The notes under the pieces were generated by a model. It worked only from the letters and a program-made list of their open reading frames with translations. It was not told where the DNA came from and searched no databases. From contig NZ_FXAP01000003.1 of assembly GCF_900177615.1 (NCBI RefSeq), positions 434,001 to 498,000 on the forward strand: a stretch of 64,000 nt of DNA, read 5' to 3'. This DNA comes from Plantibacter flavus. GTDB taxonomy: Bacteria > Actinomycetota > Actinomycetes > Actinomycetales > Microbacteriaceae. The translations under genes and the position numbers were made by a program. Of the stretch, positions 2,010-51,634 are shown in pieces; within the stretch, counting starts at the first letter, position 1, and the number at the start of each line of letters is the position of its first letter.

Positions 2010-2068
2010 CTGACTTGCCCGAATCTGCACGAATATCCGTGACTTTCGTGCAGGAATGGGCGACTCAG
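2010..2068. repeat. 59-bp palindromic intergenic repeat, copy A
   Basis: Imperfect inverted repeat. The outer left arm CTGACTTGCCCGAATCTG pairs with a right arm ending GGGCGACTCAG, and the inner arms CACGAA/TTCGTG pair perfectly. It lies between the divergent TetR and MFS genes. Three other copies of exactly the same length are at 4580, 28589 and 50546. Confidence 0.8.
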
Positions 2069-4579: not shown

Positions 4580-4638
4580 CTGAGTCGCCCGGATCTGTCC
4601 AAAATTGGCGTGGATCCCAGCAGATTCGGGCGACTCAG
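4580..4638. repeat. 59-bp palindromic intergenic repeat, copy B
   Basis: The outer arms CTGAGTCGCCCGGATCTG and CAGATTCGGGCGACTCAG are complementary at 17 of 18 positions. It starts 7 bp beyond the stop codon of the membrane-protein gene at 4645-5811 and lies before the AraC start, so it could serve as a transcription terminator on the minus strand. Confidence 0.8.
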
Positions 4639-4644
4639 TCGCGG

Positions 4645-5811
4645 CTAGCGCCCGTCCACCACGGACATGAACCCCGCGAAGGCGAAGGCGGCGGGGATGA
4701 AGTAGAGCAGCGTGCGGGTGACGAGCCAACTGACCGCACCGACGGCCACCCAGATCGCATGGAAGCGCGCCCGCACCGTGAGGCGACGCCCCTCCTCGCC
4801 GACGACCGTCTCCTTCCGGGTCCAGACCTGCTCGGCCTCCATGGCGTCCCGCGCCGCTTCGAGGACGCTCTCGGCGTCCTGTCCCGCAACCCGTTCGTCA
4901 CGGTACCGCTCGGCCCTCGTGATGAGCCGCGGCACGAGGTCGGTGAGGATCGCATCGATGGCGACCCAGGGGGCGGCGTAGGCGAAGTCGGCGGCCGGCT
5001 TACTGAAGAAGACGACCCGATCGTCGACCATCTCCACGTTGTAGTACGCCGCGGTGCTGACGAGCGACGACATCACGTCGGGGGTCAGCACGTACCGCGC
5101 GTCCGTCCCGTACCCGGACGGTGCGTAGACGCGGAACCAGCGGTCGAAGTCGCCCTCGAGTGAGATGCGCAGACCCCGGTCGAGGCCCGGCGGCAGGTCG
5201 CTGCGGACGGTGTCGTTCGTCGTCGCGTCGAGCAGGAGGTGCGGGAGCGGGGCCGGCAGCCGCACGGTCAGGTAGTGCCAGTCCCGCGACCGCTTGACGT
5301 CGTCGACCAGGTTGCCGAACTCGACCCGGTCGCCGACGAACCGCGGGTGGGACTGCACCTGTGGTCCCGGCACGGTGATGAAGGCGTTGTTGTACTTCCC
5401 CGTCGTGGTGATGAGCGAGGAGAACATCGCCCGTCCTTTCGGCTCCTCCTCGAAGCCGTTGGCCACCGCGGTCAGGTGGCGCCGCCATTCGGCGAGGCGC
5501 GCCTTCGGGGACGGCGGACGTCGCGACCAGCGGTACAGGAGCCACGCACCGACGAGCAGCCCGATGAGGACGAGCATGGCGACGATCAGGCCGACGACGT
5601 CATCGGCCTCGACGCGACGGTCGTGATACTCGTCGACGCTGACGCCGACCGAGACGAGGGCGATCGCGAGGTACCAGAGGACGAGGCTGAAGTAGAGGTG
5701 GAAGAGCACGCTCCGCCCGGTGGGCGCCCATTTGGACCGGCCAGAACGACGCTCGTCCGCCATCGCCGCGGCGACCTCGTGTTCGGGCGCCGTCAGCCAC
5801 CGCAGTTCCAC
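4645..5811 (-). CDS. Predicted membrane protein of unknown function
   Basis: 388 aa from GTG 5811, preceded by GAGGGG. The longer open frame upstream looks like non-coding sequence. Two helices lie near residues 30-55 and 70-92, a long soluble region follows (about 95-330), and a hydrophobic C-terminus ends the protein. The central part contains phrases such as FRVYAPSGYGTDARYVLTPDVM, a pattern resembling DUF3137-like proteins, but I cannot assign a function. The neighbours give no pathway hint. The gene ends next to repeat copy B. Confidence 0.7.
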   Translation of the reverse strand: MELRWLTAPEHEVAAAMADERRSGRSKWAPTGRSVLFHLYFSLVLWYLAIALVSVGVSVDEYHDRRVEADDVVGLIVAMLVLIGLLVGAWLLYRWSRRPPSPKARLAEWRRHLTAVANGFEEEPKGRAMFSSLITTTGKYNNAFITVPGPQVQSHPRFVGDRVEFGNLVDDVKRSRDWHYLTVRLPAPLPHLLLDATTNDTVRSDLPPGLDRGLRISLEGDFDRWFRVYAPSGYGTDARYVLTPDVMSSLVSTAAYYNVEMVDDRVVFFSKPAADFAYAAPWVAIDAILTDLVPRLITRAERYRDERVAGQDAESVLEAARDAMEAEQVWTRKETVVGEEGRRLTVRARFHAIWVAVGAVSWLVTRTLLYFIPAAFAFAGFMSVVDGR

Positions 5812-5861
5812 TGATCCAGATCCCCTCGACGCCCTCAGCCTCCCAGCGTAGGGCAGGGCGC

Positions 5862-7532
5862 CTACCGGCTCGCAGCGTTGACGACGGCGCGGACCGACGC
5901 CTCGAGCACGGAGCGGTGGCGCCCGGCTGCCCACACCGTCTCGGCGCCACGGCGGATCTCCAGCAGGGTCAACGCCTCGGCGCCGCTTCCGGCACTGAGC
6001 GAGGTCTGATGCAGGGAGACGATCTCGACGTGGACGCCGTGGTCGGCGAGGAGACGGGTCGCCGCCTCGACCGGACCGACGTCGGCGAAGGTGGCCTCAT
6101 GGCGGTCGCCGTCGATCCGGAGACCGATCGTCGTCCGCGAGGTCTCGCCGGTCGTCGCCACATCGACCTCGAGCAGCTCGACCCGAGACGGCGTCGCCGA
6201 CAGGTAGCTGCGCTCGAACGCCGCGAGCAACGCCTCGGCGTCCAGTTCGCGACCGGTCTCGTCCGCCTGCAGCTGGACGCGACGCGAGAAGTCCACCTGG
6301 AGACGACGGGGCATCTCGATGCCGTAGTCGCGTTCGAGCAGGTAGGCGATGCCGCCCTTGCCCGACTGCGAGTTCACCCGGATGACCGCCTCGTAGCTCC
6401 GACCGAGGTCCGCGGGGTCGACCGGCAGGTAGGGCACCCGCCACGGGAGGTCCTCCGGACGGCTGCCGGTGGCCTCGGCCCGTGCCCGGTGTTCGGCGAA
6501 GCCCTTCTTGATCGCATCCTGGTGCGTCCCCGAGAACGCGGTGTGGACGAGGTCGCCGACGTAGGGGTGGCGCGGGTGGATCTCGATGCGGTTGCTGTGC
6601 TCGACGACCCGACGGATGTGGTCGATGTCGGAGAAGTCGATCATCGGGTCGACGCCCTGCGCGTGCAGGTTGAGCGCAAGGGTCGCGAGGTCGACGTTGC
6701 CGGTCCGCTCGCCGTTGCCGAAGATGCACCCTTCGACACGTTGGGCGCCTGCGAGGACAGCGAGCTCGGCACACGCGATTCCCGTGCCGCGGTCGTTGTG
6801 CGGGTGGACCGACAGGATGACGGCCTCGCGGCGGTCGAGGTTCCGGTGCATGTACTCGATCTGGTCCGCGTAGACGTTCGGGCTCGCCGCTTCGACGGTC
6901 GCGGGCAGGTTGAGGATCACCGGGCGGTCCGGCGAGGCGTCCCACAGGGTCGTCATGGCGTCGCAGAGTTCGAGGGCGTAGTCCGGCTCCGTCAGGTTGA
7001 AGACCTCCGGGGAGAATTCGAACCGCACCCCGTCGAGGTCGCCCGCGAACTCGAGGACGTCGGAGCCGCCGGCGAGGATGAGCGCGCGGAGCGAGTCGCG
7101 GTCGTGTCCGAGGACGACCTCCCTCCAGAGCGGCGCCGTCGCGGTGTACAGATGGATGACGACCGGGTTGCGGATCCCGCGGATCGACTCGACGGTGCGC
7201 TCGATCAGGTCACGACGGGCGGGTGTGAAGACGACGATCGTGACGTCCTCGGGAGCGATGTCGGTCTCGGCGATCAGGCGGACGAAGTCGTAGTCGGTCT
7301 GCGAGGCGGACGGGTAGCCGACCTCGATCTCCTTGTACCCCATGGTGACCATCAGCTCGAAGAAGGCCCGCTTCCGCTCGGGGTCCATGGGCTCGGCGAG
7401 GGCCTGATTCCCGTCGCGCAGGTCCACCGGCACCCAGAGCGGCGCCTCGGTCAGGCGCCTCGACGGCCAGCTGCGGTCGAGGAGGGGGACGTCCACCCGC
7501 GAGTACAGGTCCTGGTAACGATGGGACGGCAT
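5862..7532 (-). CDS. leuA: 2-isopropylmalate synthase (LeuA)
   Basis: 556 aa from ATG 7532; a longer form from GTG 7619 would add 29 residues of unconserved sequence. The enzyme condenses acetyl-CoA with 2-oxoisovalerate, the first step of leucine synthesis. The catalytic TIM barrel carries the signature [25 protein letters not shown], the metal-binding [17 protein letters not shown] and [10 protein letters not shown]. The last 140 residues or so match the leucine-binding regulatory domain. The closest pattern is the long actinobacterial form. Unusually, it is divergent from a FadR-type regulator with a perfect palindrome between them, so it may be a second, specially regulated copy rather than the housekeeping leuA. 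Confidence 0.92.
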
Positions 7533-11783: not shown

Positions 11784-13456
11784 TGCAGACCCTCTTCGCG
11801 ATCCTCCAGGTCTCGACCCTCGTCCTGGTCCTCGTGCTGCTCTACCGTCCGCTCGGTGAGTACCTCGCCCGGGTCTACACCTCGAGCAAGGACTTCGCCG
11901 TCGAGCGCGGCTTCTACCGTGTGATCGGTGTCGACGCCCGCTCCGAGCAGACCTGGCAGGCCTACCTCCGCGGGGTGCTCGCCTTCTCGCTCGTCGGCGT
12001 CCTCCTCGTCTACGCCCTGCAGCGCGCCCAGGCCGTCCTGCCCTTCGCGCTCGGCCTCCCCGCCGTCCCCGAGGGCCTGTCGTTCAACACGGCCGTGTCC
12101 TTCGTCACGAACACCAACTGGCAGTCGTACTCCCCCGAGGTCACGATGGGCTACACCGTGCAGCTCACGGGCCTCGCGGTGCAGAACTTCGTCTCCGCGG
12201 CCGTCGGCATCGCCGTCGCGATCGCCCTCGTCCGCGGGTTCGCGAGTCGCCGCAGCGGCACCATCGGCAACTTCTGGGTCGACCTCACCCGCGGCACCCT
12301 CCGCGTGCTGCTGCCGCTCTCCGTCGTCATGGCGGTCGTGCTCATCGCGGGTGGCACCATCCAGAACCTCAACGGCTTCACCGACGTCACGACCATCACG
12401 GGCGCGACGCAGACGATCCCCGGCGGACCGGTCGCCTCGCAGGAGGCCATCAAGCTCCTCGGCACGAACGGCGGCGGGTTCTTCAACGCGAACTCCGCGC
12501 ACCCCTTCGAGAACCCGACCGCCTGGACGAGCCTCGTGCAGAACATCCTCATGCTCGCGATCCCGTTCTCCCTGCCGCGCACCTTCGGCCGCATGGTCGG
12601 CGACCACAAGCAGGGCTACACGATCCTCGCGGTCATGGGCGTCATCTTCCTCGCCTCGTTCTCGATCCTCACGGCGCTCGAAGCCCGCGGCCTCGGAGCT
12701 GCACCGATGGCGGCCGGCGGAGCGATGGAGGGCAAGGAGCAGCGCTTCGGCGTCTTCGCCTCGACGCTGTTCGGCTCGACCTCGACGCTCACCTCGACGG
12801 GTGCCGTCAACTCGATGCACGACTCGTACACGGCACTCGGCGGCATGATGCCGATGATCAACATGATGCTCGGCGAGATCGCCCCCGGTGGCGTCGGCTC
12901 CGGCCTCTACGGCATGCTCGTGCTCGCCGTCATCGCCGTGTTCATCGGTGGGCTGCTCGTCGGCCGGACCCCGGAGTACCTCGGCAAGAAGATCGGCCCG
13001 CGGGAGATCAAGCTCGCGAGCCTGTACATCCTCGTGACGCCGACCCTCGTGCTCGCCGGCACCGCACTGAGCTTCGCCATCCCGGTCGTCCGCTCGGACG
13101 TGGAGACGACGTCGATCTGGAACCCGGGCCTCCACGGCCTGTCCGAGGTCCTCTACGCCTTCACCTCCGCGTCCAACAACAACGGTTCCGCCTTCGCCGG
13201 CCTCACGGCGAACACCCCGTGGTTCAACACGGCGCTCGGTGTCGCCATGCTCCTCGGCCGCTTCGTCCCGATCGTGCTCGTCCTCGCGCTCGCCGGTTCG
13301 CTGGCCGCACAGGACCGGGTGCCGTCGACCGCCGGGACGCTCCCGACCAACCGGCCGCAGTTCGTCGGCCTCCTCACCGGTGTCGCTGTGATCATCACCG
13401 CACTCACCTACTTCCCCGTACTCGCGCTGGGTCCCCTGGCGGAAGGGCTGTCATGA
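11783..13456 (+). CDS. kdpA: Potassium-transporting ATPase channel subunit KdpA
   Basis: 557 aa, normal family length. KdpA is the potassium-selective channel of the high-affinity Kdp pump. About ten membrane helices are present, with the pore-loop signatures [35 protein letters not shown] and [17 protein letters not shown]. The C-terminus ends in [18 protein letters not shown]. The DNA coding these last 22 residues is repeated twice more immediately downstream (period 92 bp), so the normal kdpA/kdpB junction exists in three copies. Confidence 0.95.
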
Positions 13457-13548
13457 GCCACGTCCACGACGCACACCGCGTGATCATCACCGCACCCACC
13501 TACCTCCCCGTACTCGCGCTGGGTCCCCTGGCGGAAGGGCTGTCATGA
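13453..13548 (+). CDS. 31-aa ORF copying the KdpA C-terminus (first copy)
   Basis: ATG 13453 overlaps the kdpA TGA (ATGA). The peptide is MSHVHDAHR followed by a 22-residue copy of the KdpA tail with two substitutions. GGAAGGG upstream, within the kdpA tail, would serve as the ribosome site. It arose from the 92-bp junction duplication. Whether the peptide is made is unknown, but translational coupling from kdpA looks efficient. It may simply carry ribosomes on to kdpB. Confidence 0.45.
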
Positions 13549-13640
13549 GCCACGTCCACGACGCACACCACGTGATCATCACCGCACCCACCTACCTCCC
13601 CGTACTCGCGCTGGGTCCCCTGGCGGAAGGGCTGTCATAA
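13545..13640 (+). CDS. 31-aa ORF copying the KdpA C-terminus (second copy)
   Basis: ATG 13545 overlaps the previous ORF's TGA (ATGA). The peptide differs from the first copy at one residue (DAHH instead of DAHR). It ends in TAA 3 nt before the kdpB ATG. The chain kdpA - copy 1 - copy 2 - kdpB keeps every stop/start coupled even though each copy changes frame. Confidence 0.45.
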   Translation: MSHVHDAHHVIITAPTYLPVLALGPLAEGLS

Positions 13641-13643
13641 ACC

Positions 13644-15809
13644 ATGTCCACCACGCACACGCTTCCCGCCCCGGCGGAACCCGAGCAGGAGCAGGACCAC
13701 CACCACGAGCCCGCGAAGGCCGCGTTCGGCCCGGCACAGCTGCTCGCCGCGACCCCGGGCGCCCTCCGCAAACTCGACCCGCGGCTCATGGTCAAGAACC
13801 CGGTCATGTTCATCGTCGAGGTCGGTGCGGCGCTGACCACCGTCCTCGCGATCGCCGAACCGTTCCTCGGTGGTGCGCAGGAGTCCGGCGGCTCGGCCGT
13901 GCCGGCGTCGTTCACCTGGGGCATCGCGATCTGGTTGTGGCTCACGGTCGTCTTCGCGAACCTCGCTGAGTCCGTGGCCGAGGGACGCGGCAAGGCGCAG
14001 GCCGACAGCCTCCGCAAGACGCGCACCTCGACCATGGCGAACCAGGTCACGGCCTACGACGCCTCGGCGGACCCGTCCGCGGAGCACGCCGCCATCGGCC
14101 AGGTCTCCTCGGCGGACCTCACCCTCGGCGACGTCGTCGTGGTGACCGCCGGCGAGCTCGTCCCGGGCGACGGCGACATCGTCTGGGGCATCGCCTCGGT
14201 CGACGAGTCGGCGATCACGGGCGAGTCGGCCCCGGTCGTCCGCGAGTCCGGCGGTGACCGCAGCGCCGTCACCGGCGGCACCCGCGTGCTGTCCGACCGC
14301 ATCGTCGTCCGCATCACCTCGAAGCCGGGCGAGACCTTCGTCGACCGCATGATCGGCCTCGTCGAGGGCGCGGCGCGGCAGAAGACACCGAACGAGATCG
14401 CGCTCAACATCCTGCTCGCGAGCCTGTCGATCGTGTTCGTGGTCGTCGCGCTCACGCTCAACCCGATCGCCTCCTACGCGGCGGCTCCCGTCAGCGTCCC
14501 GGTCCTCATCGCCCTCCTCGTCTGCCTCATCCCGACGACCATCGGCGCCCTGCTCTCGGCCATCGGCATCGCCGGCATGGACCGACTCGTGCAGCGGAAC
14601 GTGCTCGCGATGTCCGGCCGTGCGGTCGAGGCCGCCGGCGACGTCACGACCCTGCTACTCGACAAGACCGGCACCATCACCTACGGCAACCGGCAGGCGG
14701 TCGAGTTCATCGCCCTCCGCGGGGTCACGCCGGAGGAGCTCGCGCAGGCCGCAGCCCGGTCCTCGCTCAGCGACCCGACGCCCGAGGGCAAGTCGATCGT
14801 CGACCTCGCGGCCGAGCGTGGCATCCACCTGGACGGGTCCGGGGCCGGCGAGATCGTCCCGTTCACGGCGCAGACCCGCATGAGCGGCCTCGACCAGCCG
14901 GACGGCGCACAGATCCGCAAGGGTGCCGGCTCGGCCGTGCTGGCCTGGGTGGAGTCGTTCGGTGCCCTCGCCGAGGCGACCCGCGCCGAGCTCCAGGAGC
15001 ACGTCGAGGCGGTGTCCGCCGGCGGCGGCACCCCGCTCGTCGTCGCGCAGACCGACACCACCGGCACCGCGCGGGTGCTCGGCGTCGTCCGCCTGAAGGA
15101 CGTCGTCAAGGCCGGCATCGCGGAGCGGTTCGCCGAGCTGCGCGCCATGGGCATCCGCACGGTCATGATCACGGGTGACAACCCGCTCACCGCGAAGGCG
15201 ATCGCCGCCGAGGCCGGAGTCGACGATTTCCTGGCCGAGGCGACGCCCGAGCAGAAGCTCGAGCTCATCCGCAAGGAGCAGGAGGGCGGCAACCTCGTCG
15301 CGATGACCGGTGACGGCACGAACGACGCTCCGGCGCTCGCGCAGGCCGACGTCGGTGTCGCGATGAACACGGGCACCTCCGCTGCGAAGGAGGCCGGCAA
15401 CATGGTCGACCTCGACTCCGACCCGACGAAGCTCATCGACATCGTCCGGATCGGCAAGCAGCTGCTCATCACGCGAGGTGCCCTCACGACGTTCTCGATC
15501 GCGAACGACGTCGCCAAGTACTTCGCGATCATCCCGGCCATGTTCGCCGGGGTGTTCCCGGGGCTCGCACTGCTCAACATCATGCAGTTGCACTCCCCCG
15601 CGTCGGCGATCCTCTCGGCGATCATCTTCAACGCGATCATCATCGTCATCCTGATCCCGCTGGCCCTCCGCGGGGTGAAGTACCGACCGCTCAGCGCTTC
15701 GAAGGTCCTCAGCCGGAACCTGTTGGTCTACGGACTCGGCGGCGTGATCGCGCCGTTCATCGGCATCAAGCTGATCGACCTCGTCGTCACCCTGATCCCC
15801 GGCTTCTGA
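13644..15809 (+). CDS. kdpB: Potassium-transporting ATPase ATP-binding subunit KdpB
   Basis: 721 aa from ATG 13644. KdpB is the P-type ATPase engine of the Kdp pump. The phosphorylation motif DKTGT is at Asp340, the TGES actuator loop is present ([10 protein letters not shown]), and the hinge motif is [18 protein letters not shown]. The N-terminus has an unusual acidic/His stretch ([12 protein letters not shown]) before the first helix. Translation is probably coupled to the preceding junction copies. Confidence 0.96.
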
Positions 15810-20345: not shown

Positions 20346-20475
20346 CGGCCCCCGCCCCGGTCCCCCGCACACGCACGACGACGACGTGAAGCACGACGTG
20401 CCGAAGCCCGAGGAGGTCGACCCCGAGACAGGGACCGACGCCGACGGCGACCCCGTCGAGAACCCGTCAGGCTGA
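20335..20475 (+). CDS. Small acidic protein (46 aa), 3' end tandemly copied
   Basis: ATG 20335 overlaps the SRPBCC gene by 11 nt in another frame. The peptide is disordered, rich in Asp, Pro and Glu, and ends ETGTDADGDPVENPSG. It has no recognised family. The DNA for its last 17 codons and stop is repeated four more times downstream without start codons. The overlap with the upstream gene and a plausible GGATGG before the ATG support expression. Confidence 0.5.
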   Translation: MSSDGPRPGPPHTHDDDVKHDVPKPEEVDPETGTDADGDPVENPSG

Positions 20476-20828
20476 TCCTCCGGCATCGGTCCCCGTCTCG
20501 GGGCGAGCACGACCCCGAGACGGGAACCGACGCCGACGGCGACCCCGTCGAGAATCCATCGGGCTGATCCTCCGCCGTCGGCCCGTCCGAGGCGAGCACC
20601 GCCCCGAGACGGGAACCGACGGCGACCCCGTCGAGAACCCGTCAGGCTGATCCTCCGGCATCGGCCCGTCCGAGGCGAGCACCGCCCCGAGACGGGAACC
20701 GACGCCGACGGCGACCCCGTCGAGAACCCGTCAGGCTGATCCTCCGGCATCGACCCGTCCGAGGCGAGCACCGCCCCGAGACGGGAACCGACGCCGACGG
20801 CGGCCCCGTCGAGAACCCGTCGGGTTGA
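20421..20828 (+). repeat. Five tandem copies of a gene 3' end (83-92-bp period)
   Basis: The segment from CCCCGAGACgGGaACCGACG through GTCGAGAACCCGTCaGGcTGA recurs with stop codons ending at 20475, 20567, 20650, 20739 and 20828. Linkers (TCCTCCGGCATCGGCCCG, GAGGCGAGCACCG) are also conserved. Only the first copy belongs to an open reading frame with a start. The array fills the 400-bp gap before the MFS gene. Confidence 0.88.
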
Positions 20829-20877
20829 TCCCCTGATTCCTGCCGGCCGGTACTCCCGCCGCCTCTAGGCTCGGAGC

Positions 20878-22107
20878 ATGAGTGCTCGCGCCGGTCAGGC
20901 GAACCCCCGCCCCGCGCTGTCCGCCCCTCTTCGGCGGCGGCGCGGGGCGATCTTCGTGTTCATGCTCACCGTCGGCGTGGGTCTGTCGTCCTTCATCGTC
21001 CGGACGCCCGCCGTCCGCGACCTCGTGCACGCGAGCACCGCCGAGATGGGACTCATCCTCTTCGGCATCTCCGTAGGGTCGATGACGGGCATCCTGTCGT
21101 CCGCAGCGCTCGTCCGTCGGTTCGGCGCGCGTCGCCCGATCATCATCGGTGGGGCGGCGTTCGTCATCGGACTCGCCCTCCTCGCCCTCATGGCGGGTGC
21201 CGGGCAGGGCGTCGGCGTCTTCCTCGGTCTGATCGGCATCGGCCTGGGCTTCGGCCTCGCTGAGATCGCGATCAACATCGAGGGCGCGATGATCGAGCAG
21301 CTGTCCGGGCGGTCCATCCTGCCCGTGCTCCACGGCTGCTACAGCCTGGGTTCCGTCATCGGCTCGGTCGCCGGCATCGCGCTCACGGCGATCGCCTTCC
21401 CGGTGACGATCCATCTGCTGATCGTCGCGGCCGTTGCACTGGCGGCGCTGCTGTGGGCGATCCCGAAGATCCCCGCAGAGACGGGACGACAGTCGGACAC
21501 GGGTGCCGGCTCCCCCGGGATCCGTGCGCAGCTCGCGGTCTGGCGGCAGCAACGCGTGATCTTCCTCGGCCTCATCGTGCTCGCCCTCGCGCTGGCCGAG
21601 GGCGCCGCCGGCGACTGGTTGCCGCTCATCATGGTCGACGGGCACGGCACCACGGCCGCCGTCGGATCGATCGTCTTCGCCGGGTTCGCACTCGCCATGA
21701 CGATCGGTCGATTCGCCGGCGAACCGCTCCTCGCCCGCTTCGGCAAGGCCAACGTGCTGCGGGTGAGTGCGCTGGTGTCGGCGGTCGGGATCGCGCTCGT
21801 CGTCTTCTCCGACAGCGTGCTCGTCGCGGGACTCGCGGTGCTCCTGTGGGGGCTCGGTGCAGCGCTCGGCTTCCCGGTGACCCTCTCGGCGGCGGGTGAG
21901 AGCGACGATCCGACGACGACCGTCGGCGCCGTCGCCTCGGCCGGCTACGTCGCGTTCCTCGTCGGACCGCCGTTGCTCGGGTTCCTCGGGGAGCACTTCG
22001 GTCTGCGTGGCGCGATGATCGTGGTGCTCGCCGTCGTCGTGCTGGCGTCGTTCCTGACGTCCGCGGCGAAGCCGCAGGAGCGGTCGGTCACGCCAGCCGG
22101 TCCCTGA
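20878..22107 (+). CDS. MFS transporter, YbjJ-like
   Basis: 409 aa from ATG 20878 with CGGAG upstream. Twelve membrane helices. GLSSFIVRTPAVRDLV near the N-terminus and GLGFGLAEIAINIEGAMIEQ, given here in part, resemble the YbjJ-type MFS proteins, whose substrates are unknown. The stop codon is supplied by the first unit of the GGTCCCTGA repeat array. A second protein of the same type lies at 59686-60933. Confidence 0.85.
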   Translation: MSARAGQANPRPALSAPLRRRRGAIFVFMLTVGVGLSSFIVRTPAVRDLVHASTAEMGLILFGISVGSMTGILSSAALVRRFGARRPIIIGGAAFVIGLALLALMAGAGQGVGVFLGLIGIGLGFGLAEIAINIEGAMIEQLSGRSILPVLHGCYSLGSVIGSVAGIALTAIAFPVTIHLLIVAAVALAALLWAIPKIPAETGRQSDTGAGSPGIRAQLAVWRQQRVIFLGLIVLALALAEGAAGDWLPLIMVDGHGTTAAVGSIVFAGFALAMTIGRFAGEPLLARFGKANVLRVSALVSAVGIALVVFSDSVLVAGLAVLLWGLGAALGFPVTLSAAGESDDPTTTVGAVASAGYVAFLVGPPLLGFLGEHFGLRGAMIVVLAVVVLASFLTSAAKPQERSVTPAGP

Positions 22108-22445
22108 GTCGAACTCCGGTCCCTGAGCCGCAACCGCCGGTCCCTGAGCCGCAACCGCCGGTCCCTGAACCGCAACCGCCGGTCCCTGAGCCTGTCGAAG
22201 GGCAGCCCCACCCCGGTCCCTGAGCCCGTCGAAGGGCAGCCCCACCCCGGTCCCTGAGCCCGTCGAAGGGCAGCCCCACCCCGGTCCCTGAGCCTGTCGA
22301 AGGGCAGCCCCACCCTGGCCCCTGAGCCTGTCGAAAGGCAGCCCCACCCCGGTCCCTGAGCCTGTCGAAAGGCAGCCCCACCCCGGTCCCTGAGCCTGTC
22401 GAAGGGCAGCCCCACCCCGGTCCCTGAGCCTGTCGAAGGGCAGCC
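22098..22445 (+). repeat. Tandem array: eight 34-bp units preceded by 19-21-bp units
   Basis: Four short units beginning CCGGTCCCTGA (22098-22180) are followed by eight units with exact 34-bp spacing, starting at 22181, 22215, 22249, 22283, 22317, 22351, 22385 and 22419. Each contains GGTCCCTGAGCCTGTCGAAG followed by a GGCAGCCCCACC segment. The core is a motif seen widely between genes in actinobacteria. The array sits between convergent genes and has no unique spacers. Confidence 0.92.
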
Positions 22446-22482
22446 GGACAGACCTCCCCGCAGATGTGCAAGACCCCCGGGG

Positions 22483-22566
22483 GCACTTCGACAAGCTCAG
22501 TGACCGGGAGCGCTCAGCGGCCGGGGACCGCTCAGTGACCGGAGACCGCTCGGTGACCGGGGCTAC
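22483..22566 (-). repeat. Inverted partner of the GGTCCCTGAG array
   Basis: CACTTCGACAAGCTCAGTGAC at 22485 is the reverse complement, with few changes, of the array core. It is followed by four spaced copies of CTCAGtGACCGG-like text up to the end of the ThrE-type gene. Together with the plus-oriented array it can form long hairpins between the convergent genes, a plausible bidirectional terminator. Confidence 0.7.
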
Positions 22567-27117: not shown

Positions 27118-27200
27118 TGCGCTGCGCCCAGATGACGCCCTGTTACGGGCGAAGCCGATTGACAGGCGACGTCCGGGACTCGTGATGCAGGATCGTGCGT

Positions 27201-28574
27201 ATGACCCGACAGATCCGATTCAACGCCTTCGACATGAACTGCGTCGCCCACCAGGCGTCGGGCATGTGGCGTCACCCCGACGACCGCTCGAGCACCTACA
27301 AGGACCTCTCCTACTGGACGGACCTGGCGCAGCTGCTCGAGCGCGGCAACTTCGACGGCATCTTCATCGCCGACGTCCTCGGCACGTACGACGTCTACGG
27401 CGACAGCAACGAGGCCGCGATCCGCAACGGCGCGCAGGTGCCCGTGAATGACCCGATCCTGCTCGTCTCGGCGATGGCCGCGGTGACGAAGCACCTCGGC
27501 TTCGGCGTCACGGCCGGCACCGCCTATGAGCACCCGTACCCGTTCGCGCGGCGCATGTCGACGCTCGACCACCTGACGAAGGGGCGGGTCGGCTGGAACG
27601 TCGTCACCGGCTACCTGCCGAGTGCGGCGCGCAACATGGGGCACGATGACCAGCTCGAGCACGACGAGCGGTACGACGTCGCCGACGAGTACCTCGAGGT
27701 CCTGTACAAGCTGTGGGAGGGCTCGTGGGAGGACGACGCCGTCGTTCGCGACCGCGAGACGGGCGTGTTCACCGACCCGACGAAGGTCCACGAGATCGGC
27801 CACTTCGGCAAGCACTACACGGTGCCCGGCATCCACCTGTCCGAGCCGTCCACGCAGCGGACGCCGGTCATCTACCAGGCCGGTGCGTCGCCGCGCGGCA
27901 TCCAGTTCGCCGCCGGCAACGCGGAGGCGATCTTCGTCGGTGCGTCGACGAAGGCGGGCCTGAAGGCGACGGTCGGACGCATCCGTGACGCCCTCGAGGC
28001 CGCCGGTCGCGACCGGTACTCGGCGAAGATCTACACGCTGCTCACGATCATCACCGACGAGACGAGCGAGCAGGCCCAGGCGAAGCACGAGGACTACCTG
28101 CAGTACGCGTCGCAGGAGGGTGCGCTCGTGTTCATGTCGGGCTGGATGGGCATCGACCTGTCGCAGTACGACCCGGAGGAGCCGATCGGTAACGTCAAGA
28201 GCAACGCCATCCAGTCGGCGGTCGCCAACTACCAGGCGGCCAACGAGGAGGGTGGCGAGTTCAAGGTGAAGGACATCGCGCGCATGGGCGCGATCGGTGG
28301 GCTCGGTCCGCGGATCGTCGGCAGTGCGTCGGAGATTGCCGACACCCTGCAGGAGTGGGTGGAGGAGACCGACGTAGACGGCTTCAACCTCGCCTACACC
28401 ATCACGCCCGGCACCTTCGAGGACATCGTCGAGTTCGTCATCCCCGAGCTGCGACGTCGTGGTGCCTACCCCGAGGAGTACGTCGAGGGCAGCCTCCGCC
28501 ACAAGCTCCACGGCCGTGGCGACCGTCTCCCCGAGGAGCACACCGGGGCCCGCTACCGCTACGCGAAGGAGTAG
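27201..28574 (+). CDS. LLM-class flavin-dependent monooxygenase (NtaA/SnaA/DszA type)
   Basis: 457 aa from ATG 27201, with AGGA upstream. Family text includes FNAFDMNCVAHQASGMWRHP, DLAQLLERGNFDGIFIADVLG (in part), GRVGWNVVTGYLPSAARNMG, GASPRGIQFAAGNAEAIFVG and DGFNLAYTITPGTFEDIVEFV. These enzymes use reduced FMN from a partner reductase to attack C-S or C-N bonds. No reductase gene is adjacent. It is followed by repeat copy C and the tRNA gene. Confidence 0.9.
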   Translation: MTRQIRFNAFDMNCVAHQASGMWRHPDDRSSTYKDLSYWTDLAQLLERGNFDGIFIADVLGTYDVYGDSNEAAIRNGAQVPVNDPILLVSAMAAVTKHLGFGVTAGTAYEHPYPFARRMSTLDHLTKGRVGWNVVTGYLPSAARNMGHDDQLEHDERYDVADEYLEVLYKLWEGSWEDDAVVRDRETGVFTDPTKVHEIGHFGKHYTVPGIHLSEPSTQRTPVIYQAGASPRGIQFAAGNAEAIFVGASTKAGLKATVGRIRDALEAAGRDRYSAKIYTLLTIITDETSEQAQAKHEDYLQYASQEGALVFMSGWMGIDLSQYDPEEPIGNVKSNAIQSAVANYQAANEEGGEFKVKDIARMGAIGGLGPRIVGSASEIADTLQEWVEETDVDGFNLAYTITPGTFEDIVEFVIPELRRRGAYPEEYVEGSLRHKLHGRGDRLPEEHTGARYRYAKE

Positions 28575-28588
28575 GCCTCCCAGCGCCC

Positions 28589-28647
28589 TCGAGTCGCCCG
28601 GTTCTGCGCGGGATTCGCGATATTCCGAGCAGAGTCGGGCGACTCAG
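28589..28647. repeat. 59-bp palindromic intergenic repeat, copy C
   Basis: Arms TCGAGTCGCCCGGTTCTG and CAGAGTCGGGCGACTCAG pair imperfectly. The total length is exactly 59 bp, as in the other copies. It starts 15 bp after the LLM monooxygenase stop and lies before tRNA-Gly. Confidence 0.78.
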
Positions 28648-28731: not shown

Positions 28732-28805
28732 GCGGATGTAGTTCAATGGTAGAACTTCAGCTTCCCAAGCTGATAGCGCGGGTTCGATTCCCGTCATCCG
28801 CTCCA
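28732..28805 (+). tRNA. tRNA-Gly (anticodon CCC)
   Basis: Acceptor arms GCGGATG and CATCCGC pair fully. The D-loop contains AATGGTAGA, the anticodon stem TCAGC/GCTGA encloses TTCCCAA (anticodon CCC), and the T-arm contains GGTTCGATTCC. The CCA end is encoded. A TACGAT hexamer at 28703 may be the -10 box. The sequence after it differs in character, consistent with a tRNA-linked accessory region, but no second copy of the tRNA 3' end was found in the window. Confidence 0.97.
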
Positions 28806-49251: not shown

Positions 49252-49325
49252 CGGGACGCGGCCTTTCGTGAGGAGTGGTCGTGTGGCCCTCACACTACGC
49301 GCTCGAAGATCGCCGGGAGGGACAG

Positions 49326-50549
49326 TTGGCCAGACGTGAGTCCGTGCAGTCGGGTCCCGGCAGCCAGGCGCTCATCGTCGACCTCATCCGCTCGGCCGGC
49401 ACGATCAGCCGCACCGAGCTCACCGAGGCGACGGGCCTGACCCAGCCGTCGATCTCCAACATCGTCCGCCGCCTCATCGAGGACGGACTCGTCCGCGAGA
49501 CCGGTCGGGCCGCGCCCCGCGGTGGCAAGCCGCGGACCCTCCTCGAGATCAACGCGAGCGCCAAGTACGGCGTCGGGATCCAGCTCGGGTTCGAGTCGAT
49601 CACGCTCGTCGCCACCGACGTCCGCGGCGGCGTCGTCGGCCGGCAGCTCGTCGACGGCGCAGGCTCGGCCACGCCGGAGCAGGTGACCGACCGACTCGTC
49701 ACGCTCTACCGCGGCTTCGTCGCCGGCGTCGGGCTCGCGGCGCCGTCGATCGCGGGCGTCGCCGTCGTCGCTCCCGGCCCGATCGCCCAACTCGGCGGCG
49801 TCCTCCTCGGTCCGCCCACGCTCGTCCGCTGGGACGACTTCCCCCTGCAGCAGGCGTTGCAGGAGAGCCTCGACGTCCCGGTGGTCGTCGACAACGATGC
49901 CGCAGCCGCAGCTGTCGGCGAGTTCTGGAGTCGCCAGGTGTCGCGCACGGAGTCCTTCGCCTGCGTCTACATGGGCACCGGGATCGGCGCCGGAATGGTG
50001 CTGGGCGGGGCCCTCTATCGCGGTTCGAGCTCGAACGCCGGTGAGCTGGGTCACATCAGCATCGAGGTCGACGGCGTCCCCTGCCACTGCGGCAACCGTG
50101 GGTGCCTGGAGCGCTACGCAGCACCGGCAGCCGTGATGGCGGCGGCCGAGGCCTCGCGGGATCGCCTCGACGGACTCGGGCTCGGCTTCGCACCGGAGAC
50201 GCTCAGCCGCGACTTCGATCAGCTCGCGCGCGCCGCCGTCAGCGGTCACGAGGCGGCGCTCGATCTCATCCGCTTCTCGGCCGACCGCGTCGCCGCCGCC
50301 TCGGTGACCCTCGCGAACCTGCTCGACCTCGATCGACTCGTCCTTGCCGGCCCTGGCATGGCGGTAGCCGGTTCGCTCTATGCCCGCGCGATCCGCGAAC
50401 GCCTCGAGCAGCGCTTCTTCGCCAGACGTGCCCACCCGATCGTGGTCGAGCTCTCCGCCAACCCGCGCGACGCAGCAGCGATCGGCGCCGCGTCACTTGT
50501 CCTCCAGGGCACGATCGCGCCAGGGCACGGGCCGGCGCTCACCCGCTGA
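49326..50549 (+). CDS. ROK family transcriptional repressor
   Basis: 407 aa from TTG 49326, chosen because GGGAGGG lies just upstream; GTG 49275 is the longer alternative. Winged helix at about residues 12-75 (GTISRTELTEATGLTQPSIS), then a ROK sugar domain with DNDAAAAAVGE and the zinc motif CHCGNRGCLE. Such proteins repress sugar operons and respond to the sugar or its phosphate. It is divergent from the mannan operon and is the best candidate regulator. Its stop codon lies within repeat copy D. Confidence 0.9.
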   Translation: MARRESVQSGPGSQALIVDLIRSAGTISRTELTEATGLTQPSISNIVRRLIEDGLVRETGRAAPRGGKPRTLLEINASAKYGVGIQLGFESITLVATDVRGGVVGRQLVDGAGSATPEQVTDRLVTLYRGFVAGVGLAAPSIAGVAVVAPGPIAQLGGVLLGPPTLVRWDDFPLQQALQESLDVPVVVDNDAAAAAVGEFWSRQVSRTESFACVYMGTGIGAGMVLGGALYRGSSSNAGELGHISIEVDGVPCHCGNRGCLERYAAPAAVMAAAEASRDRLDGLGLGFAPETLSRDFDQLARAAVSGHEAALDLIRFSADRVAAASVTLANLLDLDRLVLAGPGMAVAGSLYARAIRERLEQRFFARRAHPIVVELSANPRDAAAIGAASLVLQGTIAPGHGPALTR

Positions 50550-50604
50550 GTCGCCCGAATCCGTCCAGAATCGCGTCGAAATCGAGCGGTTCCGGGCGAC
50601 TCAG
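50546..50604. repeat. 59-bp palindromic intergenic repeat, copy D
   Basis: Arms CTGAGTCGCCCGAATCCG and CGGTTCCGGGCGACTCAG pair at 16 of 18 positions. The TGA at 50547-50549 in its left end is the stop codon of the ROK repressor. It lies between convergent genes (ROK and GH26) and may act as a terminator for both. Confidence 0.8.
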
Positions 50605-50626: not shown

Positions 50627-51634
50627 CTACGGCAGGACCACTTCACCCTGATTGAACACCCGCGGATGGAAGTACGCGTTCTGGATCTCGGTGTTGGAGT
50701 TGTTGCCACGCAGTTGCTCCGACCAGATCATGAAGTACGACCAACGCGTCTGCGACTGGAGGAGGTTCGCATCCGGCGCCTTCCCCAACTCCGCGATCGC
50801 GATCGGCTTCGTACCGGCGATCGTCTGCATCTGCTGATAGTCGGCGGCACTCGGATAGTTCTTGTACCAGACGTCGAGTGAGACCACGTCGACGTAGGAG
50901 TTCCCCGGGTAGTAGTTCGCCCACCCTCCCGCCGGGTTGTCCTGCACGTTCCAGACCCAGATGAGGTTGTCGAGCCCCTGTGAGTCGAAGTAGTCACGCA
51001 TCTGCTGGAAGATCTTCGCCCCGCCGTTCGCTCCCGATCGGCCGCCCCACCAGTTCCAGGTCTCGTTCATCTCATGGAAGGGCCGGAAGAGGACCGGGAC
51101 TCCGGCGTCCTTGAGCTGCCGAAGATATGGGACGACCTCGGCCATCCGCTGCCGCCACGTGGTGTTGAGAGCGGTGCCGCCCGTGACGATCTGGGTGAAC
51201 TGTGCGTTGGTGATCTGCGTCTTGACACCGCCGTCGAACTCACAGGTCGAGGGCCCGGTCGGTGAGCATGCATGCCACGTCAACGCGACGAGCGAACCGT
51301 TCGCCCACTCGGTCTTCGCCTGATCGATCACCCGCTGACGGTTGGCGGCATCCTGAGCTCGGAACATCAGGTCACCGCCCCACAGACCGGGATACTGACC
51401 GGTGATGTCCTTCACCTGCTGCGTGTATTGGCCCGGCGCACTGGCGGGCTCCTTGTTGTGCTGGCCCGACACGACGTTCGAGCCGGTGATCGAACGGAGG
51501 TACTGGATCACCGACGCTTTCGTCTTGGCCGGGAACGCCTCCGCGGGCGCCGGTTGCCCGACCGCCGCTCCTGCCAAGCCGAGCACGAGCGCGGTGGCGA
51601 GCGCCAGTCTGCCGGCACGAACCTGTGATTTCAT
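50627..51634 (-). CDS. Secreted GH26 beta-mannanase
   Basis: 335 aa from ATG 51634, preceded by AAGGAG. Signal peptide about 1-33. Catalytic domain: VVSGQHNKEP, acid/base Glu188 in LFRPFHEMNETWNWWGG, VSLDVWYKNYP and nucleophile Glu282 in IAIAELGK. No carbohydrate-binding module or wall anchor, so it is released. It would cut mannan chains for the GH5 enzyme and ABC importer. It is transcribed separately, with AATTAATAA upstream as in the main operon. Confidence 0.93.
   Translation of the reverse strand: MKSQVRAGRLALATALVLGLAGAAVGQPAPAEAFPAKTKASVIQYLRSITGSNVVSGQHNKEPASAPGQYTQQVKDITGQYPGLWGGDLMFRAQDAANRQRVIDQAKTEWANGSLVALTWHACSPTGPSTCEFDGGVKTQITNAQFTQIVTGGTALNTTWRQRMAEVVPYLRQLKDAGVPVLFRPFHEMNETWNWWGGRSGANGGAKIFQQMRDYFDSQGLDNLIWVWNVQDNPAGGWANYYPGNSYVDVVSLDVWYKNYPSAADYQQMQTIAGTKPIAIAELGKAPDANLLQSQTRWSYFMIWSEQLRGNNSNTEIQNAYFHPRVFNQGEVVLP

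Follow-up and report, generated by a model that had tools for sequence, protein, structure and literature searches.

The window analysed here, a 64,000-nucleotide stretch of the Plantibacter flavus genome (contig NZ_FXAP01000003.1), carries four dispersed palindromic elements, and a nuclease gene to which they can be related lies before it on the same contig (Table 1). A preliminary description of this DNA had reported four elements of exactly 59 bp, and all four were recovered at the same positions and at that length. The conserved ends described for them were confirmed: with up to three mismatches allowed, the end motif matches six times in the window against 0.12 expected, a number reached by none of 100 shuffled sequences, but copy 3 starts with TCGAG and not with the consensus CTGAG. 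A search of the window at Rfam gathering scores returned the tRNA gene as its sole match and nothing at the palindromes. Other repeats were also noted in the window: a 34-bp tandem array of CGGTCCCTGAGCCTGTCGAAGGGCAGCCCCACC type at 22113-22513, which forms a separate repeat family, three copies of a 92-bp unit at 13388-13663, and five copies of a unit spaced at 83-92 bp at 20407-20887.

Table 1. Palindromic elements of the window, adjoining features and the bracketed nuclease gene (window coordinates unless a genome and contig are given)
Feature	Position	Strand	Context
Palindrome copy 1	2010..2068	.	59 bp; between divergent TetR-type gene (1286-1933, -) and MFS transporter gene (+)
Palindrome copy 2	4580..4638	.	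59 bp; 6 bp off the stop of gene 4645-5934 (-)
Palindrome copy 3	28589..28647	.	59 bp; stop of luciferase-like monooxygenase gene (27195-28574, +) 14 bp before
tRNA gene	28732-28802	+	next after palindrome copy 3
Palindrome copy 4	50546..50604	.	59 bp; between convergent ROK (49275-50549, +) and GH26 (50627-51634, -) genes
TGA stop codon of ROK gene	50547..50549	+	bases 2-4 of palindrome copy 4
DUF559 (Vsr-like, PD-(D/E)XK-type) nuclease gene	G000:C7:334238-335104		same contig, about 99 kb before the window

To count the family, a covariance model was built from 18 copies of the window's genome (G000). Across the whole of G000 it found 22 clear copies and two weak ones, so the four copies of the window are not the only ones in the genome. 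Five of the seven genus genomes compared (G000 and G001-G006) are rich in copies, with 33-46 strand-wise matches each; the model matched two places in G002 and found no palindrome copies in G005. The set analysed below comprises 95 located copies: 22 from G000, 19 each from G001, G003 and G004, and 16 from G006. About four further copies of G001, which has 46 strand-wise matches, lie outside this set, as do four weak matches, two in G000 and a single one each in G004 and G006. By the model, 93 of the 95 copies are 59 bp long and two are 58 bp. The palindromes are GC-rich and are predicted to form stable hairpins. Only one of the 95 copies lies inside a called gene, and the earlier picture of dispersed, mostly intergenic, REP-like elements of constant length is borne out. 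Named records that share the palindrome ends include Plantibacter, and Rathayibacter has 60-bp versions.

In four genera, copies recur in pairs separated by about 0.96-1.1 kb, and the gene between them encodes a DUF559-type protein of about 290 residues. In G000 this is the nuclease gene on contig C7, bracketed by two of the best-preserved copies. Eight such bracketing copies from four species retain 24.75 of 29 arm pairs and differ from the consensus at 5.6 positions, compared with 19.97 pairs and 14.2 mismatches in dispersed copies. The assignment of the protein is based on a PF04480 match of 23.4 bits against a cut-off of 20.6, with 9/9 members matching at E 0.1 or better. A search profile built from nine bracketed nuclease proteins had a single PDB match up to E 5, namely 3r3p, a "mobile intron protein", at E 0.0064 and over the C-terminal part. 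Of 64 relatives, at least 60 retain the putative catalytic residues E192, D225, E236 and H242; structure prediction for two sequences gave a mean pLDDT of 43.4 and was not used as evidence. In 10/10 loci read, TGTGGA, which we take to resemble the DnaA-box core on the other strand, stands after the upstream palindrome and before the nuclease start (e.g., L003:1566-1574).

The C7 gene is one of seven DUF559 genes of its kind in G000, five of which are bracketed by their own palindromes. The sixth (C3:15644) has one palindrome by the scan described below and a similar second one, and the seventh (C10:189295) has no matching palindrome pair. A second palindrome family, of approximate sequence CTGAGGTGAGGCAACTCGTCG, was observed beside another DUF559 gene of G000 (L366:1572 and 2579). 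It has at least two dispersed copies in the 230 kb covered, at L141:1189 (G000:C7:431188) and L138:2658 (G000:C7:314657), and both are further members of the family of the C3:15644 palindrome.

Relatives of the nuclease are common, as the profile matches 273 of 398 genomes of the bacterial family at E 1e-20 or better. The flanks of 103 nuclease genes were scanned for palindromes without presupposing their sequence, and a gene was considered paired when its left and right palindromes agreed in 26 or more of their 44 outer letters. Protein score alone selected 30 top matches from the family and 28 genes from other families of the order; another 35 genes (15 + 20) came mostly from genomes picked for holding elements, and the last 10 comprised six from G000 and four from the order; L353, which duplicates L366, is not counted. 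At a lax setting, a palindrome was found on both sides of 71 of the 103 genes, and left and right matched in 64. The top family matches, which include close relatives and are not independent, were paired by palindromes of 58-59 bp in 27 of 30 cases spanning 12 of 13 genera, with L169, L170 and L175 failing. The other sources gave 11/28 for the other families of the order, 4/15 for eight chosen genomes (of 29 loci 15 were counted, the remainder being fragments, weak partial matches and one locus at a contig end, 14 in all), 15/20 for further regions and 7/10 for the last set. The bracketing palindromes of these relatives measure 58-60 bp and have their own sequence in each lineage. A stricter scan found palindromes on both sides of 36 and on one side of 18 of 65 family genes; for 29 loci of the order the numbers were 7 and 6.

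Controls were much lower, with matches in 4.3% of mispaired genes and 1.0% of zones inside genes. A matching pair surrounded 3 of 230 control genes; one of these is the nuclease itself, and the other two lie between the copies of an array. Single control zones elsewhere in the loci gave 5/100 and 2/58. Since the lax setting yields one-sided palindromes fairly often by chance (59/230 and 67/230 control genes), evidential weight is placed on the matching pairs. Protein and palindrome identities are correlated (Mantel r 0.66; the maximum of 2000 permutations was 0.22), and palindrome identity is 0.93 among C7 orthologues from four species and averages 0.45 among five paralogues of G000. Shared host ancestry may lie behind part of this co-divergence. 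The pairing does not extend to every carrier of the pattern. In genus g57, pattern copies number 16 in G138, 8 in G194 and 8 in G285, but the palindrome is present at none of the nuclease genes found; one of these eight genes is weakly paired, with other ends. G146 and G200 hold 19 and 16 pattern copies, and another palindrome accompanies the nuclease gene that was examined in either genome. Among the copies listed from other genera, a nuclease lay nearby in 3 of 24 loci.

To describe the position of the copies, gene contexts were assigned with a home-made gene caller. Dispersed copies are found mostly at the 3' ends of genes. Convergent genes enclose 43 of the 95 copies, tandem genes 42 and divergent genes nine. 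The stop codon of a neighbouring gene coincides with bases 2-4 of the element in 57 copies, and in 14 both convergent stops do so. Counted per independent site, stop overlap occurs at 16 of 28 sites, five of them with both stops; 13/28 sites are convergent and 2/28 divergent, against 193/845 and 197/845 gene junctions in the DNA examined. Of 37 copies from other genera, 17 are convergent and two divergent, with exact stop-codon overlap in 2/37 as called by a gene caller trained on Plantibacter. On a larger scale, 18 of 19 copies in G004 and 15 of 16 in G006 lie within 0.75 Mb of dnaA, where a fraction of about 0.37 is expected. These two genomes are the complete ones on which the clustering rests; in other genera, dnaA was found in 3/10 contig starts.

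The preliminary description had also proposed covarying arms. Within G000 this was not confirmed: 81.1% of arm positions in the 18 copies are paired against 79.8% after shuffling, and 59 of 500 shuffles were as high. The symmetry inside one genome is, judged by these counts, that of a symmetric consensus. When copies were grouped into 28 orthologous sites, 19 of which have at least two copies in different species, substitution rates were 0-0.02 at positions 3, 4, 8-11 and 18, whereas many other positions reached about 0.2, and the rate was inversely correlated with information content (-0.89). Both sides had changed in 58 pair cells, whereas 886 cells showed pairs made or broken, a pattern that fits a symmetric protein site better than an RNA helix. 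At many sites positions 3-4 are part of stop codons, which may add constraint there. What is kept in each arm is approximately GA-N3-GCCC-N6-G, and retention of so short a symmetric motif suggests that the copies are still read by a protein, for which the nuclease is the simplest candidate. Strong covariation appears only between the palindromes of different nuclease genes: across the 64 paired genes it extends to all 24 arm positions (z 4.8 to 11.4), each with 3-4 Watson-Crick pair types.

Comparison between species revealed both retention and absence of copies. Among the matches listed, orthologues of copy 1 are present in G001, G003 and G004 and absent from G006, G005 and G002, and those of copy 2 are present in G001, G003, G004 and G006; G002 has no palindrome at the place aligned with copy 2. 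At the site of copy 3, the matches listed from G001, G004 and G006 hold 1.6-1.85 kb of other DNA and no element, and for copy 4 a counterpart site in relatives was not resolved among them. Single and inverted copies of the CGGTCCCTGAGCCTGTCGAAGGGCAGCCCCACC-type core were seen in relatives at the site of copy 3 (L210, L212, L214). G005 and G002 have no orthologue of the C7 nuclease, their best matches being 4.5e-23 and 3.6e-46 compared with about 1e-157, and both are without the palindrome at five aligned orthologous sites; G002 keeps its two copies at another site. The empty sites anticipated in relatives thus exist in two genus members without the nuclease, but their junctions are blurred. 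No target-site duplication or sharp insertion junction was seen in the aligned sites. The REP/MITE-like character proposed earlier stands for its REP-like side, with presence and absence between species and a linked enzyme gene, and not for target-site duplication. The neatest case of presence and absence is a 74-bp block centred on a palindrome, by which two Rathayibacter genomes differ at one site, with further indels adjoining it. No nuclease of this kind occupies the locus in G006 (best match 3.5e-60), a genome that retains 16 copies, and these decay no faster than others (motif mismatch 0.027, against 0.019-0.045 elsewhere). Of all the results, this one argues most against the copies simply depending on the C7 nuclease, unless its loss was recent or a paralogue serves in its place.

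Considering the bracketing and the lineage-specific pairing, we hypothesize, with a probability of roughly 60%, that the four repeats of the window are dispersed members of a palindrome family belonging to the C7 DUF559 nuclease, which would recognize them and would have brought about their spread. The nuclease would recognize its own palindrome, either as a symmetric site or folded into a hairpin. By cutting or nicking it could have enabled copies to spread to stop codons, where they would do no harm, analogous to what has been proposed for RAYT enzymes and REP/REPIN elements. The copies now seen in Plantibacter would be mostly old and vertically inherited. A broader extension is offered tentatively, as we regard it as possible and no better than that. 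Each DUF559 nuclease of this kind would form a self-maintaining pair with its own 58-60 bp palindrome, which it would recognize as folded or symmetric DNA and copy to stop codons at gene ends, and lineages would keep changing to new palindrome sequences together with the enzyme. The dispersed sites would later acquire a use or become indispensable, possibly by marking the origin half of the chromosome. Such pairs would be a convergent counterpart of REPIN-RAYT systems on a restriction-enzyme fold, widespread in Microbacteriaceae and reaching other families of the order.

The alternative that fares best, though we consider it rather improbable, is that the palindromes are fixed binding sites of a nuclease-like or other protein, which serve gene regulation or organization of the origin half and either never moved or have ceased to move. 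Orthologous sites of long standing, strongly constrained at a small number of symmetric positions, would be expected in that case, and the equal constraint in G006, which lacks the gene, and the crowding of copies around dnaA fit as well. Fixed sites leave unexplained, however, the private palindrome that flanks each nuclease gene left and right, and also the position of copies at the 3' ends of genes and seldom between divergent genes (9/95), and the clustering at the origin comes from two genomes only.

It is unlikely that the palindromes act as bidirectional transcription terminators or as hairpins at mRNA 3' ends, a role the preliminary description had considered. The predicted hairpins, the share of convergent contexts and the stops inside the elements would suit such a role, but the U-tract of an intrinsic terminator is missing: TTTT occurs in 0/190 flanks, and the T fraction of the flanks is 0.108 against 0.152 in the background. 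The arm comparisons weigh against an RNA helix too, given that covariation within G000 does not exceed that of shuffles and that orthologues conserve sequence rather than pairing. Still less probable is a function as passive or site-specific recombination boundaries, similar to integron attC sites, between which segments are gained and lost. It could account for two segments that have a copy at either end in G001 and G004 and, among the matches listed, are replaced by a single copy in G000 and G003 (both segments) and G006 (one), as well as for an array of the form copy-gene-copy-gene-copy in G000. Yet just two such segments were found among the matches listed, deletion between repeats explains both, and the core sites of attC (RYYYAAC/GTTRRRY) are missing from the palindrome consensus. 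Classical REP/REPIN elements moved by a RAYT, the mobilization first suggested, would likewise be dispersed multi-copy palindromes whose ends supply stop codons, but this can be practically dismissed, as the Y1 transposase family PF01797 is found in 0/7 genus genomes (a control search matched 5/14 named genomes), the bracketed gene encodes a different nuclease and the consensus has no GTAG tag; PF01797 0/7 refutes RAYT mobilization, barring a RAYT too divergent for that family.

The proposed partnership of nuclease and palindrome was also compared with known systems. The C-terminal part of the nuclease resembles, by a weak sequence match (E 0.0064), the structure 3r3p, which we take to be I-Bth0305I, a Vsr-like (EDxHD) homing endonuclease. 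In contrast to I-Bth0305I, the Plantibacter nuclease gene has no intron and has palindromes on both sides, and homing is not claimed for it. The chromosome-domain sites of the matS/MatP and Noc type are palindromic and constrained, number about 20 and are enriched in one part of the chromosome; they measure 13-14 bp, whereas the Plantibacter sites measure 59 bp, lie around the origin and bracket a nuclease gene. The DUF559 family is common and, to our knowledge, has no settled role. No paper tying DUF559 to palindromes was found in the open-licence literature, although one may be in print elsewhere, and the enzyme-repeat partnership looks new.

According to the available portions of two papers (PMC3116915, PMC3733652), REP/RAYT systems consist of dispersed extragenic palindromes and a single-copy enzyme gene with its own palindromes adjoining, the element ends supply stop codons (TAG), and co-evolution of enzyme and repeat has been proposed. 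As far as these portions go, the Plantibacter system shares with such REPtrons an enzyme gene flanked by its own repeats (64/103), dispersal to gene ends and co-divergence, with TGA as the stop codon instead of TAG. It differs in the enzyme, a DUF559/Vsr-like nuclease as opposed to the HUH Y1 transposase of RAYT, and in the repeat, a single 58-60 bp palindrome without a GTAG tag as opposed to GTAG-tagged REPs of 20-40 bp in doublets. Because the enzyme is unrelated to RAYT, the palindromes are not members of the REP/RAYT family; if recognition and copying by the nuclease hold, they would work like one. Another DUF559 protein, VsrA of Caulobacter, is described in the available part of its report as a Vsr-like member of the PD-(D/E)XK superfamily with a proposed function in mismatch repair at methylated motifs (PMC12907096). 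The DUF559 domain is what the two share in that part of the report, in which the word stem palindrom is absent.

A large set of DUF559 proteins physically tied to private palindromes provides a direct and testable hint of what these proteins recognize. Each pair also links a protein sequence to its likely DNA target, which makes the set useful for deciphering a specificity code. Should the pairing be functional, REP-like systems would have arisen at least twice from unrelated nucleases, and the persistence of vertically inherited enzyme-repeat pairs could be addressed in an independent system.

Several arrangements of the copies were noted in passing. The array in G000 lies at L138:5198-6705 (G000:C7:317197-318704) and contains a DUF1349 gene and a UPF0029 gene. 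The two segments bounded by two copies hold two genes each in G004, named by eye as a hydrolase and a regulator-like gene (L235:3367-5566) and as TetR and a dehydrogenase-like gene (L227:11471-13027). In another genus, near-identical copies stand in tandem at a spacing of 83 bp (G112:C1:682744-682965 and 338115-338253; G340:C3:3840-3978).
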